NCBI RefSeq assembly: GCF_000143985.1
Contig: NC_014364.1
Coordinates: forward strand, 2,232,001-2,296,000
DNA length: 64,000 bases
Reading direction: 5' to 3'
Source: Sediminispirochaeta smaragdinae DSM 11293
Lineage (GTDB): Bacteria > Spirochaetota > Spirochaetia > DSM-16054 > Sediminispirochaetaceae
In this document: one piece after another, positions 1 to 49,413 of the stretch
Numbering within the stretch: position 1 is the stretch's first letter
Layout of the letters: every line of letters starts with the position of its first letter
Program-made: the position numbers and the translations under genes
Notes under the pieces: generated by a model
Databases searched by the model: none
Told to the model about the DNA's origin: nothing
The model's input: only the letters and a program-made list of their open reading frames with translations

Positions 1-2040
1 GACCATCAGATATTCCGCATTCGATTCAACACCGAGCATCAGCGGATTCGCAAAACTCAGTTTCGGTTTCGGATTAAAACCTTGAGAAAAAGCAAGTCTG
101 ATCTGCGCACGCTGAAATGATCGCTCAAAGATCGTCATTGTATTAATGTGGCTTAAAAAAGAAGCCTTTCCCGTTTTACTAAAACGACAGAGAAGCGTCA
201 GCTGGGATTCGTTCTCAATGGACCTTTCTTTTATCGACGAATTCTGAGGCTCAGGCCCTGTTACAGAGGCTTCCGTTTCAACGATTGAAACATCTGAGAC
301 GCAGATTCCACAGTTATGATCACAGGGAACAGAACAGATGGAGGTTAACACAGCCTCCTTCGCTTGCTTCTTTTCACGCTTAAGAAAACCCTTTCCGACA
401 CCAAGATCAATGCTATCCCACGGCAGGCTCTCGTCAAGGCTCTTTTCTTCCAGAATCTCTTTCGTAATGTTCCAGCCGGAATTTGCAAAGAGATCCCGCC
501 AGAGATCCCGTTTGACATGCTCTTCCCATGCGTCGAGACCCGCTCCACGCTTAAAAGCTTGCTCGATCAAGGCTCCAACCCTAGCGTCCCCCCTGGACAG
601 AACCCCTTCAAGGGTCGAAATAAAGGGATCATGATAGTTTAACTTTACCGGCCCTCTCCGGAAACGCCCCTTAAGTCGCTGCAGTTTTTCGGAAGCTTCT
701 TCTTCGTGAAGCTGACGCGACCACTGGAATGGCGTATGGGGTTTGGGAATAAATGTTCCGACATTCACATTGATAGGCATCCGCACACTTTGCTGAATCT
801 CTTCAATATAGTCACCAATGAGATCGACTTCATTCTCGGCATTACCTATAGGCAGACCTATCATAAAATAAAACTTTGCCAAGCGCCATCCGGACTGTTT
901 GGCTGTCCTGAGGATATCGATCACTTGTTCGATGGGAACACTTTTATTGATCGTTTTCTGCGCATTATCTCCCGGTACCTCGATGGCAAAGGTCAAACCG
1001 CTTTTCCTAACCCTTGAGATTTCCTGGAGAAGCGGCAGGGTGAAACTGTTGACTTTCAGGGAGGGTAAGGAAAACGATACGCCATCGGAGGCGTATCGTT
1101 GATTGAGTAGCGTGATAAGCTGATGGATATGGCTATAATCCCCTGAAGAAAGAGAAGAGAGTGTGATCTCGCGATAACCGGCACACCGGACCAAGAATTC
1201 CACCTCTTCAAGAATATGCTCAAGGGGTTTTTCACGTTTCTGGCGATAAAAATATCCGGCATGGCAAAAACGGCACCCATTAGGGCAGCCGCGCATAATC
1301 TCAACGACACCATGGTCTTGTACCACCTTGATATTCGGGACAGGTACAGGGCCAAGGGAAGCAGTGCCGAATCCCTGCCAGGAAGCACGAATTGTCATCT
1401 CACTCTTTTCTGGGTACCATATATGCTTGCTTGCACGCAGCAGGCTGATGAGGGAATCCCTATCAGCGCCCTGCTTCTTAGCATCCGCAAGTTGTGAAAC
1501 AAGGTTGGAGAATACGCTCTCTGCCTCTCCGATAAAAACCCCGTCGAAGAAAGCCCCGAAAGGCGTAGGATTTGTTACAGCCGGACCGCCTGCAATAACG
1601 ATGGGATCCCCTTCCCTTCTCTCTTTGCTGTGAAGGGCTACCCCGCCTGCATGGAGGACATGTAAAATAGTCGTGGCGGATAATTCATATCCGATGGAAA
1701 TACCGAGAAGATCGAGGCGGTTGAGGGGAATCCCATTTTCGAGGGTAAAAAGAGGTATACTGTGGACCAAAAGTTCTTCCTCGAAATCAAAGGCAGGAGC
1801 AAAAACACGCTCGCAGGCAACATGTTCTAAAGCGTTTAAACTGCCGTACAATATCTTTACGGCATTATTTGACATCCCGATTTCATAAAGATCCGGGAAA
1901 CAGATTCCGACGCGATATAACCCAGCGAGTTCTTTACGGATCATGCCGTATTCACCACCGACATATCGACCGGGCTGCAGAACTTGATGGAGGATACCGC
2001 GAAGATCTTTTTCCGGAATAATCAAATTGCTATGTTTCAC
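1..2040 (-). CDS. B12-binding radical SAM protein fused to DUF2344 (3' end outside window)
   Basis: The frame is open from a GTG at 2040 to the left edge, so the protein is incomplete. The GTG follows an in-frame TAG directly and lies 11 nt after the rodA stop, with a weak AGGGG upstream. The first ~200 residues resemble a cobalamin-binding domain. A CPNGCRFC motif (CxxxCxxC, 4Fe-4S radical SAM) falls at about residue 252 (bases 1264-1287). Near the edge the frame reads FSQGFNPKPKLSFANP, typical of DUF2344. This domain order matches the TIGR03960-type radical SAM family, whose reaction is not known to me; some members lie beside ribosomal or RNase genes. It is the last gene of the rod-shape run. 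Confidence 0.85.
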   Translation of the reverse strand, partial: MKHSNLIIPEKDLRGILHQVLQPGRYVGGEYGMIRKELAGLYRVGICFPDLYEIGMSNNAVKILYGSLNALEHVACERVFAPAFDFEEELLVHSIPLFTLENGIPLNRLDLLGISIGYELSATTILHVLHAGGVALHSKERREGDPIVIAGGPAVTNPTPFGAFFDGVFIGEAESVFSNLVSQLADAKKQGADRDSLISLLRASKHIWYPEKSEMTIRASWQGFGTASLGPVPVPNIKVVQDHGVVEIMRGCPNGCRFCHAGYFYRQKREKPLEHILEEVEFLVRCAGYREITLSSLSSGDYSHIHQLITLLNQRYASDGVSFSLPSLKVNSFTLPLLQEISRVRKSGLTFAIEVPGDNAQKTINKSVPIEQVIDILRTAKQSGWRLAKFYFMIGLPIGNAENEVDLIGDYIEEIQQSVRMPINVNVGTFIPKPHTPFQWSRQLHEEEASEKLQRLKGRFRRGPVKLNYHDPFISTLEGVLSRGDARVGALIEQAFKRGAGLDAWEEHVKRDLWRDLFANSGWNITKEILEEKSLDESLPWDSIDLGVGKGFLKREKKQAKEAVLTSICSVPCDHNCGICVSDVSIVETEASVTGPEPQNSSIKERSIENESQLTLLCRFSKTGKASFLSHINTMTIFERSFQRAQIRLAFSQGFNPKPKLSFANPLMLGVESNAEYLMV

Positions 2041-2051
2041 CTACACGGCCC

Positions 2052-3389
2052 CTAATAGTGATATCGTCTGACATAAATATTCTGAATAAGAGAAAGTCCA
2101 ATTAAAGCCGTCCAGAGAGAGGATCCACCGTATGAAAGGAAGAAGAGCGGTATACCGGTAATCGGCATAATGCCAATTGCCATACCTATATTAACCACGA
2201 GGTGGAAAAAGAACATTCCGACGACTCCAGCGATTACCAATGAACCAAAGGTATCTTTGCTGGAAAAAATCATGGTAAGCCCGCGAAAAATAATCAGGGC
2301 GAACAGGGCTATAACAAGTACAGACCCGAAGAATCCCAGTTCTTCCGCAAGAATCGAGAAAATAAAATCGGTGCTCTGCTGAGGAAGAAAGCGGTAATGG
2401 CTTTGAGTTCCCTGCAAATAGCCCTTTCCCCATACTCCTCCGGACCCGACTGCTGTTACCGATTGTATAATGTTCCATCCGTTTCCTTGAGGATCGACCG
2501 ATGGATCAATAAAAACGATTAGACGCATGATCTGATAATCTTTCAGAACCTTTCCAACCATTCGGGAAGCAAACAGGGCTGAGGTTATTATCACCAAGCC
2601 ATATCCGATCCAGTAGAAATAGCGCTGCTTTGTAATAAGAAAGCCGACCCAGGCAGAAACAGTAGCCAGGAGTAAGGCTCCTCCTAGGACGCGAAAAAGA
2701 AATGGATTCGTAAGTACCTGGACGAAGGCAATCTGTCGTTGAATGAAATAGAGCTGCCACACCGGTAAGACCCCAATCAGAATGGTCAACGAGCCAACGG
2801 CAATGAGAAAAAATATATAACGCTTTTGCACTCCGGCGATAAAGGCAATAGTAAGGAAAATGGGCACATAGACCGAAGCGGTACCGAGATCAGGCTGTAC
2901 AAGGATAAACGCCATCGGTACGACAGCCAAAAACATTCCCTTAAGGAAAACAGACAGCTTTTTCACACCCTTCTTATTGTTTTCAAAATAGCGAGCGAGC
3001 AAGATAATTGTCGATATCTTGGCAAACTCGGAAGGCTGAATACCAAAACCAAAAAAACCGAGCCAGGAGCGGGCTCCGTTGACCGACTTTCCCAAAACAA
3101 GAGTAGAAATCAGCAAAAAAATTGAAAAAAAGTATATGACGACGGCCCACATGCGAATTATTGAATAGTCAACCATGAGCAGTACAAAGAAAAGTACAAT
3201 ACCAAGAACAGCCCATATAATCTGATAAAGATACTCATTTGAAACAAGTTCGCCACTCGAATTTATGCCGCTGGAATAGATGAAGAGAACCCCCAAAACC
3301 ATCAAAATCAGCATGGAGATGAAGAGTATCAGATCAAAATTAAAGATATTTCCCGACCTTGCCACTCTAATTCTCCTTCCTGCGATCAT
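2052..3389 (-). CDS. rodA: Rod-shape SEDS peptidoglycan glycosyltransferase RodA
   Basis: A 445-residue polytopic membrane protein of the FtsW/RodA/SpoVE family. SEDS proteins polymerise lipid II into glycan strands and act with a class B PBP in the elongasome. About ten hydrophobic segments are visible, and the C-terminal PITGIPLFFLSYGGSS is the family signature. The start overlaps the end of the PBP2 gene by 23 nt, so the two are probably translationally coupled, and the pair follows mreBCD. Assignment to RodA rather than FtsW rests on this neighbourhood. Confidence 0.95.
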   Translation of the reverse strand: MIAGRRIRVARSGNIFNFDLILFISMLILMVLGVLFIYSSGINSSGELVSNEYLYQIIWAVLGIVLFFVLLMVDYSIIRMWAVVIYFFSIFLLISTLVLGKSVNGARSWLGFFGFGIQPSEFAKISTIILLARYFENNKKGVKKLSVFLKGMFLAVVPMAFILVQPDLGTASVYVPIFLTIAFIAGVQKRYIFFLIAVGSLTILIGVLPVWQLYFIQRQIAFVQVLTNPFLFRVLGGALLLATVSAWVGFLITKQRYFYWIGYGLVIITSALFASRMVGKVLKDYQIMRLIVFIDPSVDPQGNGWNIIQSVTAVGSGGVWGKGYLQGTQSHYRFLPQQSTDFIFSILAEELGFFGSVLVIALFALIIFRGLTMIFSSKDTFGSLVIAGVVGMFFFHLVVNIGMAIGIMPITGIPLFFLSYGGSSLWTALIGLSLIQNIYVRRYHY

Positions 3390-5235
3390 TATGAAGCCAT
3401 CCCCAGTGAAGGGCCTTCAGAGCCTCATCATAGGTTTGATGTGCGAAGATTCCCTGGAAGATGATGTTGGCTGCCCTGACAGCCCACCATTCCCAATCAT
3501 TGGATGCTTCGACCATGGTCACTACTACCAGCTGGTCTTCAGGCGGAGCACCGTAGGGACCGTTTGCTGCAAACCAAGCATGCCATCGGTCGTCATAGCC
3601 TACCTCGGCCGTTCCTGTCTTACCAGCTACATCGACAGCCTTTGTTGTGATTACAACGGCTGCCGTCCCGTCCGTGATAACCCCCCGCATATTTTCCTGA
3701 ACCGTTTTGAAGGTCTCCTTGCTGATCGGAGCCGTTTTGTATGCCACAGGGTCGACAACCCTAACGGTCTCGCCGCTGGTGGGGTCTCTTACCTCTTTGA
3801 GGAAATGGGGACGATAAATAACGCCTTGATTGACGGTCATCGCTACAGCATTTGCCAACTGAATCGGTGTAACCAAGAGGTAACCCTGTCCAATCGAAAG
3901 GTTAACCGTGTCACCACCGACCCAGGGACTGTTAAAACGTTGCTGTTTCCACTGGGGAGTGGGAACGAGACCTGCTATCTCTCCCGGAATATCAATTCCG
4001 GAAACTGAACCAAAACCGAACAGTTTGGCATATTCGGAAATGATATCGATCCCCAAATGTCGTAGGCCTAAAGTATAAAAATAGACATCACAACTTTCCT
4101 CCAGGGCCTCTTTCAGATTAAGGGGCCCATGGCCATGGAGCAGGTGACAGTTGAAGTAGCGATCGCCAAGGCGAAAACGTCCTTCGCAGGTTATCGTTTT
4201 CTGAGGATCGATGGCATGCTCCTCCAGTGCAGCGGTAGTCATAATAATCTTAAAGGTTGAGCCCGGAGGATTTGCAGATTGTATTGCTCGATTGAGAAAT
4301 GGGTTATGGGGGTCAAGGCTCAAGGTCCGAAAGGCTTCGTCAGATGTGTCGGTGTAAAAAAGATTTGGGTCAAACCAAGGATAGGAAACCATGGCGATAA
4401 TTTCGCCGGTGGCAGGCTTGAGAACAATGGCCGATCCCATCCTGTCACCGAGGGCTTCTTCACACAGTTTCTGAATGCGCTTATCAACGGTAAGTACGAG
4501 GTTTTTGCCATTTTCAGGGGCTTCGAAGCGATCTTCGATGCCGCCGATTTGGCGGCCCCTGACATCAACCGTAGAAAAGGAACGTCCATCCTTTCCTCGA
4601 AGCAAGGTATCGTAGCCTTTTTCTATCCCGCTTTTGCCGATGACAGAATTGATATTGTATCCCTGATTGTAGAGGACCTGTAGTTCCTCAACGGTGATGT
4701 TGCCCACATAACCGAGGATGTGTGAAAGAGAGCCGATGTCATTGTAGTTTCGAATGGACTTGCTGTTCCAGGTGACGCCGGGAAAGTCTTCAACACGTTC
4801 GGCAATTCTGGTGACCGTTGCGAGATCAACTCCACTTTTCACCTCAATAGGCTGAAAGTACTGAGATGCTCGAGCCGGAATCTTCTTTTCAATAGCAGAT
4901 TCCGGCATATTCAGTACCCTTCCAAGCCGTTCGAACACAGCATTTCGGTTATCCGCCGGAAGCTGAGCAGGGATGATATATACGGCAAAGGAGTCTATGT
5001 TTGTCGCAAGCGGATAATCGGCATTACGATCAAAAATCTCACCACGTTGGGCCGGTACCGTAAATGAACGCATGGCAACGGCCTTTGCGCGATCTTGATA
5101 AAAAATCGTATGAACTACCTGCATGTTGAAAAGATACAGAAGATAGATTAACACGAGCAGGCCGAAGATGAATCCCAGAACAAGAACTCTCGACTTGCGG
5201 ACTGTTGAGTCTTGGGGCCCGGAAAAACCCGTCAT
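3367..5235 (-). CDS. mrdA: Penicillin-binding protein 2 (elongation transpeptidase)
   Basis: A 622-residue class B PBP that cross-links peptidoglycan during rod elongation. One N-terminal membrane anchor (residues ~15-35) is followed by a PBP dimerisation domain and then the transpeptidase domain. The catalytic motifs are present: STFK at about residue 325, SCD at about 379 and KTG (AGKTGTAEV) at about 535. Length and motif order are normal for MrdA. The ATG overlaps the mreD stop and the gene runs into rodA, fitting a PBP2-RodA synthase pair. Confidence 0.95.
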   Translation of the reverse strand: MTGFSGPQDSTVRKSRVLVLGFIFGLLVLIYLLYLFNMQVVHTIFYQDRAKAVAMRSFTVPAQRGEIFDRNADYPLATNIDSFAVYIIPAQLPADNRNAVFERLGRVLNMPESAIEKKIPARASQYFQPIEVKSGVDLATVTRIAERVEDFPGVTWNSKSIRNYNDIGSLSHILGYVGNITVEELQVLYNQGYNINSVIGKSGIEKGYDTLLRGKDGRSFSTVDVRGRQIGGIEDRFEAPENGKNLVLTVDKRIQKLCEEALGDRMGSAIVLKPATGEIIAMVSYPWFDPNLFYTDTSDEAFRTLSLDPHNPFLNRAIQSANPPGSTFKIIMTTAALEEHAIDPQKTITCEGRFRLGDRYFNCHLLHGHGPLNLKEALEESCDVYFYTLGLRHLGIDIISEYAKLFGFGSVSGIDIPGEIAGLVPTPQWKQQRFNSPWVGGDTVNLSIGQGYLLVTPIQLANAVAMTVNQGVIYRPHFLKEVRDPTSGETVRVVDPVAYKTAPISKETFKTVQENMRGVITDGTAAVVITTKAVDVAGKTGTAEVGYDDRWHAWFAANGPYGAPPEDQLVVVTMVEASNDWEWWAVRAANIIFQGIFAHQTYDEALKALHWGWLHNDRRKEN

Positions 5236-45381: not shown

Positions 45382-45774
45382 ATGTCAAATGACACTGTTG
45401 ATGCTCAAATTCTATTGGTCGAGGATGAAGCTTTAATAGCCATGGCAGAAGCCCATATGCTTGAAAAGCAGGGGTTTAGTGTAAAAACCGTCTTAAATGG
45501 AACAGATGCCATTAGAGAAGGTATCAAAAACGAGATCGACCTGATTCTGATGGATATTGATCTCGGCAGAAATAGGATGGACGGGACCGAAGCATCAAAA
45601 AAGATATTAGAACAACGCGACGTCCCTATTATATTCCTTACAAGTCACTCAGAGAAGGAGTATGTTTCTCGTGTTAAGGGTATCACGCAATATGGCTATA
45701 TACTAAAAAATAGCGGTGTGTTCGTGCTTTTCCAAGCAATTGAAAAGGCATTGAAATTGTTTAACAAAACATAA
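45382..45774 (+). CDS. Receiver-only response regulator
   Basis: A 130-residue single receiver domain: ILLVEDEALIAMAEAHMLE, acceptor Asp in LILMDIDLG, Thr in IIFLTSHSEK and Lys in GYILKNSG. There is no output domain. This subtype usually pairs with HisKA_2 kinases. It is convergent with such a kinase at 45833, 58 bp away. Confidence 0.9.
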   Translation: MSNDTVDAQILLVEDEALIAMAEAHMLEKQGFSVKTVLNGTDAIREGIKNEIDLILMDIDLGRNRMDGTEASKKILEQRDVPIIFLTSHSEKEYVSRVKGITQYGYILKNSGVFVLFQAIEKALKLFNKT

Positions 45775-45832: not shown

Positions 45833-47542
45833 TCAAATTCTGAATTTGATCAAAAAAACGGCACCACCTGCATTCCGTATTTCAAGAGAGCCACCTAATT
45901 GTTTCACTAATAACCTTACTATTTTTAACCCAAGTTTTGCGTCAGTTTCCATGCTATATGATGATGGGATCCCAATACCGGAATCAGAAACCGATAATGC
46001 AACCTCTTGGTTTAATAGTTTTTTCAGTACGACGTGAATAGTACCGGATGCTCCATGAGGAAATGCAAATTTGATTGCATTCGTGAGAAGTTCATGAACG
46101 ATGAGGCAGCAGGCAATAGCATCCCTATTTTCCATCTTGATCTCATCTATGTCCATCAGTAATTGCTTTTCAGCAGGTTCTGAGGACATAGTATTGAACA
46201 CTTGCAGAATAAGCGCCTGCAGAGATCCATGGATATTTGTTTCCTTGATATGCTTCTTATTACTTAATTCTTCATGCACCAGTGCCAAAGTTTGAAGCCG
46301 ACCAACTACATTTTCAAGTTGCTGTTTCGTTGTTTTATTCTTAATTTCATTGATTTGCAATATAATCATACTTGATAATATGGTTAGGTTATTCTTGATT
46401 CGGTTATTCATTTCATTGTAAAGAAGCTCTTTTTCTTTGAGAGCATTTTGTAGCTCTTCAGCCTTGATGCAAAGTTGCCGGTTGATTGCGAGATTACGTC
46501 GAAACTGAATAAACATAATAATGAAACCCAATATGAATAAAATGGATACAACCGTCACCGTTTCTACGTAGTATTTCACCAAAAAAGGCTCCGGCCTATT
46601 AAGGATAATTGCGTTCTGGGGAATAGTACGGGGACTTATCTTGTAACGTTTTAGGAGCTTCCAGTTTATGTAGGTTTGCGTCGTACCATACTTAGTACCG
46701 AATTCCCCTGTCGTAAGATAGTTAAGGATAGCCTTTATCCCCTCATATGCGATAACCTGTGCATCTAACATTGTGCCCCCGGTGCTACCGCTATCCGCAA
46801 GTGTTCCCCAAAACGTATAAATGGGGATGGCACTCACTTCGGCAAGTTTATCGAGAACTTCCTGAGGAATAAATTTCTTGCCGGTACGGTCCCGAAGAAC
46901 AAGTGTATAAAAGGCCATGCTGTTCGGTTTACAGGTGGATAAATAATCTTGGATTTCAGGAAGCGTGAAGTTGCTTACTGTTTGAACGTCGACACCGTAT
47001 CCATTTAGGGTCTCGTGCAGAAGTTTGATTGTCGAACCCGTAGCCGGGTTTCCACCGTCGATTATTATTGCTTTCTTGGCCTTTGGGTTTTGTGCGATGG
47101 CAAGCTTTGCGGTTCCGATTATGGCTGCCTCAATTTGCGGAGTGACAGAGAGTTGATAGTTTGCTGTCTTGTGAGGTACCGGGGAATACATGACCTGCGG
47201 GATTGGTCCAAACAGTTCGGGATAGGAGTAAAGAATATTGGCAGCTGGTCCGGATTCACTGATAATTGCATCAATTTTAACAGAGTGATATTTTGCACGA
47301 AGGTATTCGGCCCATTGTTGATGAGACAATGAATCACCAACCCTAGAGGCATCAAGATATTCGGTATAATATTGAAGTTCCGGATATTGGGCTTGCGCAT
47401 CATGAAGCCCTTCATCGAAGCCTTTTGTCCAAGGCAGCTCACTATGGTAGGAATGAAGCACAAGGACATGAACAGGCACAGCAGCGGCTACCGAAAGCGT
47501 GGAAAAGAATATGATAGCAAGTACGCCAATGTGCCACTTCAT
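45833..47542 (-). CDS. HisKA_2-type sensor kinase lacking the phospho-acceptor His
   Basis: A 569-residue membrane protein. A signal peptide precedes a periplasmic ABC_sub_bind domain (HSYHSELPWTKGFDEG, VMYSPVPHKTANYQLSVTPQ), then one transmembrane segment (about 345-365), a short coiled coil, a HisKA_2-like helix and an HATPase_c domain (LLTNAIKFAF, SDSGIGIP). The helix reads YNEMNNRIKNNLTIL; the family norm is E-x-HHR-x-KNN. Both His are Asn, so it should not autophosphorylate in the usual way. The ATP site looks complete. It may act as a phosphatase or an allosteric partner for the receiver protein alongside. Confidence 0.88.
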   Translation of the reverse strand: MKWHIGVLAIIFFSTLSVAAAVPVHVLVLHSYHSELPWTKGFDEGLHDAQAQYPELQYYTEYLDASRVGDSLSHQQWAEYLRAKYHSVKIDAIISESGPAANILYSYPELFGPIPQVMYSPVPHKTANYQLSVTPQIEAAIIGTAKLAIAQNPKAKKAIIIDGGNPATGSTIKLLHETLNGYGVDVQTVSNFTLPEIQDYLSTCKPNSMAFYTLVLRDRTGKKFIPQEVLDKLAEVSAIPIYTFWGTLADSGSTGGTMLDAQVIAYEGIKAILNYLTTGEFGTKYGTTQTYINWKLLKRYKISPRTIPQNAIILNRPEPFLVKYYVETVTVVSILFILGFIIMFIQFRRNLAINRQLCIKAEELQNALKEKELLYNEMNNRIKNNLTILSSMIILQINEIKNKTTKQQLENVVGRLQTLALVHEELSNKKHIKETNIHGSLQALILQVFNTMSSEPAEKQLLMDIDEIKMENRDAIACCLIVHELLTNAIKFAFPHGASGTIHVVLKKLLNQEVALSVSDSGIGIPSSYSMETDAKLGLKIVRLLVKQLGGSLEIRNAGGAVFLIKFRI

Positions 47543-47587: not shown

Positions 47588-48421
47588 CTATTTCCTGTTC
47601 AACTCCATCCATCTGACCGAATAATCTACTAATTCTTTTTGTCGAATTAATCTTGAATTAGCCGACCCTATCAAGCCGATTTTGATGGGATTCTCCTTTT
47701 CATATGACTGGCCTATCGATTCAAAATCATCGCAGTCAAATGCTATATCATGATAAGCCTTCCAGACCCGCCTGCCTTTTTCCATAACCGGAGCATATTC
47801 GAGAACCTCTTCTTTCCCGCTGTAGTCGGCTTTATACTCTGCCAGGTGAAAAGATGTATTATTCATGTAATCAACGCCGAGCAAGAGAATATATCCATCC
47901 AACTCGTATAGCCTTCCTATGGGACTTTTCTCATTCATTTGGTAATCAAGATGATTATCCTGAATCAGGTATGTATTGTTTTTTCCCCAGGCAGCAAAAG
48001 ACGCATTCGGATGAGAACTCCTTATGACCCCTTTTTGCTTTCTGAACGTTTCGGGAATGATTCCCATGCCTCGTGTGGGGGTAAGAGCCGGATCGAATGC
48101 AGGCATCTCAGCCCTGATTGTATCCCACCACGCCTCAGGGACAGCAGGGTTTCCCCAATTTTTCGGATCAGATAAGTCGCCTGAATGGGTAGGCATGAGC
48201 AGCGTTCCTGTTTTTCCTAAAACCTTTTCCAAGGCAAGAATGACACTTACGGCTCCACCGCATACCCACCCTATCGAACTCAGAGAGGAATGAACAAGAA
48301 CTGTCATGCCGCTCTGTACCCCAAGTTTTCTCAAATCAGATATCAGGCTTGTAATAGTATGGGGCCTTTCTTCTGTTGCGTTTATGGTGTCTTTTTCAGA
48401 CAAATCATCCTCCAATTGCAT
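47588..48421 (-). CDS. AAC(3)-type aminoglycoside N3-acetyltransferase
   Basis: A 277-residue antibiotic acetyltransferase. VHSSLSSIGWVCGG (about 43-56), LMPTHSGD (about 78), TRGMGIIPETFR and RSSHPNASFAAWG (about 130) are the family's conserved blocks, including the active-site His. Members use acetyl-CoA to acetylate aminoglycosides at the 3-amino group, but many chromosomal copies have other or unknown substrates. It diverges from a MarR-GNAT gene. Confidence 0.88.
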   Translation of the reverse strand: MQLEDDLSEKDTINATEERPHTITSLISDLRKLGVQSGMTVLVHSSLSSIGWVCGGAVSVILALEKVLGKTGTLLMPTHSGDLSDPKNWGNPAVPEAWWDTIRAEMPAFDPALTPTRGMGIIPETFRKQKGVIRSSHPNASFAAWGKNNTYLIQDNHLDYQMNEKSPIGRLYELDGYILLLGVDYMNNTSFHLAEYKADYSGKEEVLEYAPVMEKGRRVWKAYHDIAFDCDDFESIGQSYEKENPIKIGLIGSANSRLIRQKELVDYSVRWMELNRK

Positions 48422-48504
48422 AGTAAATGAAGCCAGTTGTTATGTTCTTTTGTGTTTTACAACTTCGTTTATGTTATCACAAAAAAAAATCAACAGAAAG
48501 TGTG

Positions 48505-48536
48505 TTGACATGTACTATATTGCTGACTATAGTCAG
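48505..48536 (+). promoter_or_regulatory. Consensus promoter with a palindromic operator over the -10
   Basis: TTGACA (48505-48510) and TATAGT (48528-48533) are 17 bp apart. A perfect 14-bp palindrome, CTGACTATAGTCAG (48523-48536), covers the -10. The ATG at 48541 lies 7 nt after the -10, so transcription probably starts at the ATG. A MarR-type protein is encoded next, so autorepression is likely. Confidence 0.85.
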
Positions 48537-48540
48537 ATAT

Positions 48541-49413
48541 ATGAATGATATTTCTATTGTTAGGAAGTTCAACAGAACTGTTACGCAAAGGATTGGTGTA
48601 CTTGATGCCCAGTTTCTGGGAAGGCACAGGTCCCTTGGTGCTTCTCGGTTACTGTATGAAATCGGCATATCAGGTGCAGAAGTTAGAGACTTGCGTAGCC
48701 GCCTCGGTCTCGATTCCGGCTATATGAGTCGCTTACTGCGTACGTTAGAGGCCGAAGGTTTGATAATGCTGCGTCCCTCTCCGAATGATTCGCGGGTACG
48801 AACTGCCTCGCTGACAAAAGATGGTGAGCGAGAATTGAAGCGGCTTGATGTGCTTTCGGATGAGGCTGCAGCTTTCATATTGGAACCCTTGTCAGAAAAA
48901 CAGCGTCGTAGGCTACTTGAAGGGATGGAGATTGTTGAAAGGATGCTGACTGCTGGATTGATTGTCATGGAAGTGGTGCCGCCTGAAAGCCGCGATGCAC
49001 GCTTATGTATTGAAAGCTATTTTACGGAACTTAACGATCGTTTTGAAAATGGATTTGATCCCGGTGATAGTATCTCGGCAAGTGATAATGAGTTAACGCC
49101 GCCAAACGGATATTTTGTTGTCGCACGGATTCACGATGAAGCCATAGGGTGTGGTGCGATCAAATGCTATCCCGACCATGGTGAAATCAAACGTATGTGG
49201 GTAGCAAAGACATGTAGAGGTCTTGGAGCGGGCCGGAAGATACTCGGCTATCTGGAACAGATAGCTCGGGAGAATCATATACCGTTGTTACGGCTGGAGA
49301 CGAACAAGGTATTGACGGAAGCACAGGCAATGTACAGAAGTAGCGGCTATGAGGAGGTGGTAGCATTTAATAATGAACGCTATGCCCATCACTGGTTTCA
49401 GAAGTATATTTGA
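48541..49413 (+). CDS. MarR-GNAT fusion regulator/acetyltransferase
   Basis: A 290-residue two-domain protein. The N-terminal MarR winged helix (GASRLLYEIG, GLDSGYMSRLLRTLEAEGLI, RPSPNDSRVRTASLTKDGE) spans about 1-145. The C-terminal GNAT domain (IGCGAIKCYPDHGEIKRMWV, RGLGAGRKILGYLE, YRSSGYEEV) follows. No ribosome site precedes the ATG, in line with a leaderless message. This is a known fusion class with few defined roles. It diverges from the AAC(3) gene. Confidence 0.9.
   Translation: MNDISIVRKFNRTVTQRIGVLDAQFLGRHRSLGASRLLYEIGISGAEVRDLRSRLGLDSGYMSRLLRTLEAEGLIMLRPSPNDSRVRTASLTKDGERELKRLDVLSDEAAAFILEPLSEKQRRRLLEGMEIVERMLTAGLIVMEVVPPESRDARLCIESYFTELNDRFENGFDPGDSISASDNELTPPNGYFVVARIHDEAIGCGAIKCYPDHGEIKRMWVAKTCRGLGAGRKILGYLEQIARENHIPLLRLETNKVLTEAQAMYRSSGYEEVVAFNNERYAHHWFQKYI

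Follow-up and report, generated by a model that had tools for sequence, protein, structure and literature searches.

A membrane sensor protein of Sediminispirochaeta smaragdinae DSM 11293 lacks the phosphoacceptor histidine of its HisKA_2 domain while the rest of its catalytic core is kept, and the same condition is found, under purifying selection, in two species. The gene lies on the minus strand of the window analysed here, a 64,000-nucleotide stretch of contig NC_014364.1 (positions 2,232,001 to 2,296,000), to whose first letter the positions given below refer unless a contig handle precedes them. Judged from its sequence, the protein is a member of the HisKA_2 fold family but not a functional HisKA_2 autokinase, the acceptor His of the HRxxN motif being absent.

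Pseudo-histidine kinases are known from few model cases, and DivL, the best-studied acceptor-less kinase, is of the HisKA type and shows neither kinase nor phosphatase activity (PMC4211667). A HisKA_2 case that combines a one-residue loss, a constrained ATP-binding domain and a periplasmic small-molecule sensor would represent a clean natural separation of acceptor from kinase. Given that no phosphatase activity was found in vitro for PhyT, a HisKA_2-type protein once proposed to be a phosphatase and acting as a phosphotransferase (PMC5898713), the protein described here would make HisKA_2 phosphatase activity directly testable. It is also a warning for annotation, since the joint presence of PF07568 and HATPase_c does not imply a kinase.

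Domain architecture and gene neighbourhood

The gene, the domains that it encodes and the adjoining receiver gene are as follows.

45833..47542, minus strand: acceptor-less HisKA_2 sensor protein, 569 residues (open reading frame; Pfam; orthologue L029 at 89% identity)
47477..47542, minus strand: putative signal peptide, residues 1-22, MKWHIGVLAIIFFSTLSVAAAV (from reading of the sequence)
46568..47476, minus strand: periplasmic ABC_sub_bind-type sensor domain, residues 23-325 (profile against PDB; Pfam matches of homologues)
46496..46564, minus strand: single transmembrane segment, about residues 327-349 (hydrophobic stretch VKYYVETVTVVSILFILGFIIMFIQF, from reading of the sequence)
46187..46420, minus strand: HisKA_2 DHp domain, residues 375-452 (PF07568 over residues 377-450; omega 0.10-0.24 / 0.15)
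46388..46408, minus strand: altered H-box NNRIKNN, residues 379-385 (same protein sequence in the sister species, L029)
46403..46405, minus strand: codon AAC for N380, the phosphoacceptor position (comparison of HisKA_2 domains; EL346 alignment)
45836..46186, minus strand: CA (HATPase_c) domain, residues 453-569 (PF02518; box positions kept; omega 0.15)
46061..46093, minus strand: N box with E484 and N488 (E at +103 and N at +107 kept)
45965..45985, minus strand: G1 box D520-S-G522-I-G524-I-P (D at +138, G at +140 and G at +142 kept)
45926..45934, minus strand: G2 box LGL, residues 537-539 (G at +156 kept)
45382..45774, plus strand: single-domain receiver, 130 residues, with D58, T87 and K109 present (PF00072, 1.6e-20); candidate partner

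Three elements of a preliminary description of this locus, made from the letters alone, are borne out, namely a complete ATP-binding domain, an ABC_sub_bind sensor part and a receiver-only protein encoded convergently beside the kinase. Against Pfam, the sensor protein matches HisKA_2 (PF07568) at 9.5e-14, with 51.7 bits against a cut-off of 22.3, and HATPase_c (PF02518) at 2.6e-12 with 47.6 bits, its N, G1 and G2 boxes being complete. The periplasmic part was recognized through its relatives: the Pfam search with the single protein stayed below threshold for ABC_sub_bind, a profile made from eight related sensors matches the solved structures 3lft (9.1e-8) and 3lkv (2.2e-6) and also 6hni, and the homologues L034 and L035 lie above the Pfam cut-off for ABC_sub_bind (5e-8). 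In other spirochaetes (L031-L033) the same sensor is joined to GGDEF domains, and it can therefore be regarded as a mobile input module.

The receiver gene is separated from the sensor gene by 58 bp, and its product has an intact active site, an omega of 0.11-0.14 and 53% identity to the receivers fused to two HisKA_2 proteins of the same genome, the intact L015 and the Tyr-bearing pseudokinase L025. Since the two genes are convergent, they do not form one transcript; their synteny is common only to two close species, and no receiver was found within the flanks examined of L305, the closest full-length homologue outside the genus. This receiver is a good candidate partner of the sensor protein. 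Directly upstream of the sensor gene, and likewise in the sister species, a member of the aminoglycoside 3-N-acetyltransferase family is encoded (47588-48421, minus strand; PF02522, 1e-93), and the next stretch (48427-49413, plus strand) encodes a fusion of a MarR-type DNA-binding domain with a GNAT acetyltransferase.

Loss of the phosphoacceptor histidine

The H-box of the sensor protein reads EMNNRIKNN, the residues NNRIKNN being encoded on the minus strand by the codons AAT AAC CGA ATC AAG AAT AAC. In the alignment with EL346 (PDB 4r39/4r3a, 1.3e-15), N380 falls on the His of the sequence EVQHRVKN, the phosphoacceptor of that protein. The column before the Arg is occupied by His in 26 of the 28 HisKA_2-like domains of the S. 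smaragdinae genome, a count that takes in one protein with a doubtful H-box alignment (L026), and the two exceptions are the N380 protein itself and L025, with Tyr; His is likewise found in this column in 24 of 26 HisKA_2 domains of the sister species and in all 26 of another genus in the family.

The column preceding the acceptor is variable in kinases that bear the acceptor (H in 74, N in nine, Q in eight, Y in six and other residues in six of the 103 aligned), and an intact kinase of the same genome, L007, has the H-box EMNHRIKNNL. Thus, only N380 is abnormal, and since the first Asn is tolerated in intact kinases, a single CAC-to-AAC substitution would be enough to turn NHR into NNR. The description of the site as Asn-Asn replacing phospho-acceptor histidines consequently stands as far as the missing acceptor is concerned, but not as the loss of two acceptors, only the second position (N380) being one. 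Among the columns on which at least 80% of the relatives with the acceptor agree, the sensor protein differs only at the acceptor and at +98, where Gly is replaced by Cys; kept are E at -3, R at +1, K at +3, N at +4 and N at +5, together with E and N of the N box, D, G and G of the G1 box and G of the G2 box.

Conservation in the sister species and beyond

The orthologue in the sister species (L029, genome G003) is an 89% identical protein in which NNR recurs with unchanged codons (AAT AAC CGA); its gene has the same neighbours, and between this genome and that of S. smaragdinae (G000) the gene shows a synonymous divergence of about 0.2 and no stops. The N-terminal part has an omega of about 0.33 (0.3-0.44 in the sensor part), the DHp and CA domains have one of about 0.15 each, and for the paralogues the same pair of genomes gives values from 0.00 to 0.38 in the DHp and from 0.00 to 0.40 in the CA domain. 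Lying within the range of intact paralogues, the sensor gene therefore behaves like a working gene. Because the sister species shares NNR, and because DHp and CA are under purifying selection, NNR is, on the evidence of these two genomes, neither an error nor a sign of decay.

Outside the genus, full-length homologues with the same sensor keep the His, with YHR in L305 and HHR in L310, L311, L034, L035, L041 and L051. On this comparison NNR is therefore a genus-level trait and not a spirochaete subgroup, and the idea that spirochaetal kinases with ABC_sub_bind sensors include a conserved NNR subgroup has to be abandoned. L305 is 30% identical over its whole length, and the trees lack the resolution to join it to the Sediminispirochaeta pair as its sister. 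Retention of HHR by close homologues had been named beforehand as a mark of recent loss; on this point the answer is divided, as the closest homologue (89%) has NNR, while the next ones (about 21-30%) keep the His.

Pattern searches agree with this restricted distribution. Across 393 spirochaete genomes NR[IV]KNN occurs at 86 places and, within HisKA_2 proteins, only in the two Sediminispirochaeta genes; the longer Asn version, NR[IV]KNN[LF], is likewise confined, as far as HisKA_2 proteins are concerned, to the two Sediminispirochaeta genomes. An orthologous group in family f38 was ruled out, the matches beyond these two genes not being in HisKA_2 proteins, and the matches with Cys (L222) and with Tyr (L219) that a wider pattern gave were rejected as not HisKA_2. 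The His version of the pattern gave 50 matches in a 41-genome sample, 15 of them in the S. smaragdinae genome.

Predicted function and known systems

The retained residues (Asn at +4, Arg at +1 and the boxes) are compatible with the role proposed at the outset, that of a phosphatase or modulator of another kinase's signal. In HisKA kinases, the Asn or Thr found at +4 is required for phosphatase activity and for nothing else, and the His, though dispensable, enhances this activity (PMC3510030); the sensor protein has N384 at this position, the role of +4 being known from HisKA and not from HisKA_2. Because the protein has kept its DHp surface and the Asn at +4, we tentatively favour, with somewhat less than even confidence, a HisKA_2 pseudokinase that would be unable to autophosphorylate as a homodimer, would dock a phosphorylated receiver and would most likely dephosphorylate it under the control of a ligand. 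A homodimer devoid of the acceptor His would not autophosphorylate; the phosphorylated receiver would dock on the intact DHp surface and its phosphate would most likely be removed with the help of R381 and N384, a ligand in the periplasm and nucleotide at the CA domain acting as gates. In this role of a sensory phosphatase, the protein would act on a receiver that had obtained its phosphate from at least one of the roughly 25 intact HisKA_2 kinases; the convergent receiver (45382-45774) is a candidate substrate, and so are related receivers, for example the ones fused to L015 and L025. Against the phosphatase reading stand the absence of phosphatase activity in DivL and, in vitro, in PhyT, a receiver that is not co-transcribed and the lack of a receiver in the flanks examined of L305.

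PhyT/PhyP of Sphingomonas melonis (PMC5898713) resembles the sensor protein in being a degenerate membrane sensor of the HWE/HisKA_2 type with a periplasmic domain, which works with receivers and is not an autokinase. PhyT is nevertheless its mirror image, keeping the HRxxN His with a degenerate ATPase, whereas in the sensor protein it is the His that is lost and the ATPase that is kept, a pattern opposite to that of a PhyT-type phosphotransferase. EL346-like LOV histidine kinases without the acceptor His are described as a subgroup within the HWE/HisKA2 group (PMC10359499); they are soluble alphaproteobacterial LOV proteins, unlike the membrane sensor.

The main rival of the phosphatase reading, unlikely in our estimation although a genuine contender, is a reader of the DivL kind, which would bind a phosphorylated single-domain receiver on its DHp domain and signal allosterically, for instance to another kinase, without phosphate chemistry. 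DivL of Caulobacter crescentus, which has Tyr550 in place of the acceptor His, retains the H, N, G1, F and G2 boxes and shares this state with its orthologues, reads DivK~P (PMC4211667); the sensor protein likewise keeps its boxes, and the single-domain receiver with which DivL works has a counterpart in the adjoining receiver as candidate partner. On the other hand, exact retention of the +4 Asn and of R+1 is not obviously needed for pure reading, and an adjacent downstream kinase candidate is absent. DivL is moreover a HisKA-type protein with PAS domains, whereas the sensor protein is of the HisKA_2 type and has a periplasmic ABC_sub_bind domain and Asn at the acceptor; as it has neither a HisKA-type DHp domain nor orthology to DivL, the comparison is one of how the proteins work only.

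Rather improbable is a half-kinase acting in trans, in which the CA domain would phosphorylate the His of another HisKA_2 subunit within a heterodimer and the inputs of the two sensors would be combined. The complete and constrained CA domain and the 25 or so other HisKA_2 kinases of the genome would suit such an arrangement. Heterodimers, however, usually form between similar DHp domains, and no paralogue in the S. smaragdinae genome exceeds about 34% identity in the kinase region, so that an obvious partner is missing.

Recent inactivation on the way to a pseudogene would account for a lineage-specific change, given that the homologues outside the genus keep the His (YHR in L305, HHR in L310 and L311), and for the rather high omega of the sensor part (0.3-0.44), but it is very improbable, as the two species share the state at a synonymous divergence of about 0.2 without stops, and DHp and CA are under the tightest constraint of all parts (omega about 0.15). 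Least probable of all is an ordinary kinase that autophosphorylates on another residue, be it a nearby His or the Asn itself: the ALVHE motif of DHp helix 2 does contain a His, but this residue is found in HisKA_2 proteins generally and is not the acceptor in relatives, helix 1 holds no new His, N380 sits at the position aligned with the EL346 acceptor, and Asn is not known to serve as a phosphoacceptor.

Acceptor-less HisKA_2 proteins in other lineages

A search with the peptide pattern of the sensor protein gave no match on GTDB contigs, and there was no match on plasmids. Among GTDB species genomes, the pattern E[VILMF]xNR[VIM]KNN[LF] was found in 81 stretches, about 26 of them in HisKA_2 proteins. 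Twenty of these proteins form one mostly Bacteroidales clade with TPR-PAS-HisKA_2 architecture that reads HNR (EIHNRVKNNF, ATP boxes intact; L139, L145, L147, L151, L156, L160, L163, L164, L167, L176, L177, L178, L182, L183, L189, L201, L203, L211, L212 and L216), and the remainder are scattered. Like the sensor protein, the Bacteroidales proteins (e.g., L139, L183 and L156) have Asn for His in the same column and keep the ATP boxes and the +4 Asn; unlike it, they have TPR and PAS domains, lie at a distance in the tree and keep the first His. No receiver gene was found in the flanking DNA examined of the 20 proteins, which are orphans. Asp at the acceptor (HDRVKNN) is found in PAS-HisKA_2 proteins of two species of one spirochaete genus (L231:1117-2076 and L232:954-1970), which adjoin a NarL/LuxR-type response regulator.

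Separate origins of Asn at the acceptor in these lineages are likely from the trees. A quick tree of 135 sequences gave several such origins, but a test tree uniting the Sediminispirochaeta pair with the Bacteroidales clade outscored it, the quick trees being poorly searched; in a careful tree of 45 sequences, a single Asn clade appeared in none of 200 bootstrap trees (5-6 changes), with no strongly supported branch that forces separation. It is a possible, if somewhat doubtful, generalization that HisKA_2 proteins without the acceptor constitute a class that recurs and is maintained by selection (HNR in a Bacteroidales clade, NNR in Sediminispirochaeta, HDR in another spirochaete genus). In this class a one-residue loss would have made of a kinase a protein dedicated to dephosphorylating or reading receivers, gated by a ligand and still dependent on ATP binding.

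HNR also occurs in HisKA_2 proteins of Spirochaetales MAGs (L152:6094-7140 and L154:6923-7969), the first of which is a receiver-HisKA_2 protein; the gene next in line to it encodes a protein resembling CheA, with Hpt, H-kinase_dim, HATPase and CheW domains. S. smaragdinae has a second HisKA_2 protein without the acceptor, L025 (G000:C1:3657454-3661056, 1486-3603 on the minus strand), which is kept in the sister species and has the architecture receiver-PAS-PAS-PAS-HisKA_2; its motif, EVQYRIRYTL, has Tyr at the acceptor and has also lost the +4 Asn. Finally, L026 (G000:C1:2470854-2474339, 226-2028 on the plus strand) joins an NMT1-type periplasmic sensor to HATPase_c with a degenerate H-box, VHRRVIDN, and may be another pseudokinase, one with an ambiguous H-box alignment and without a HisKA_2 match in Pfam.
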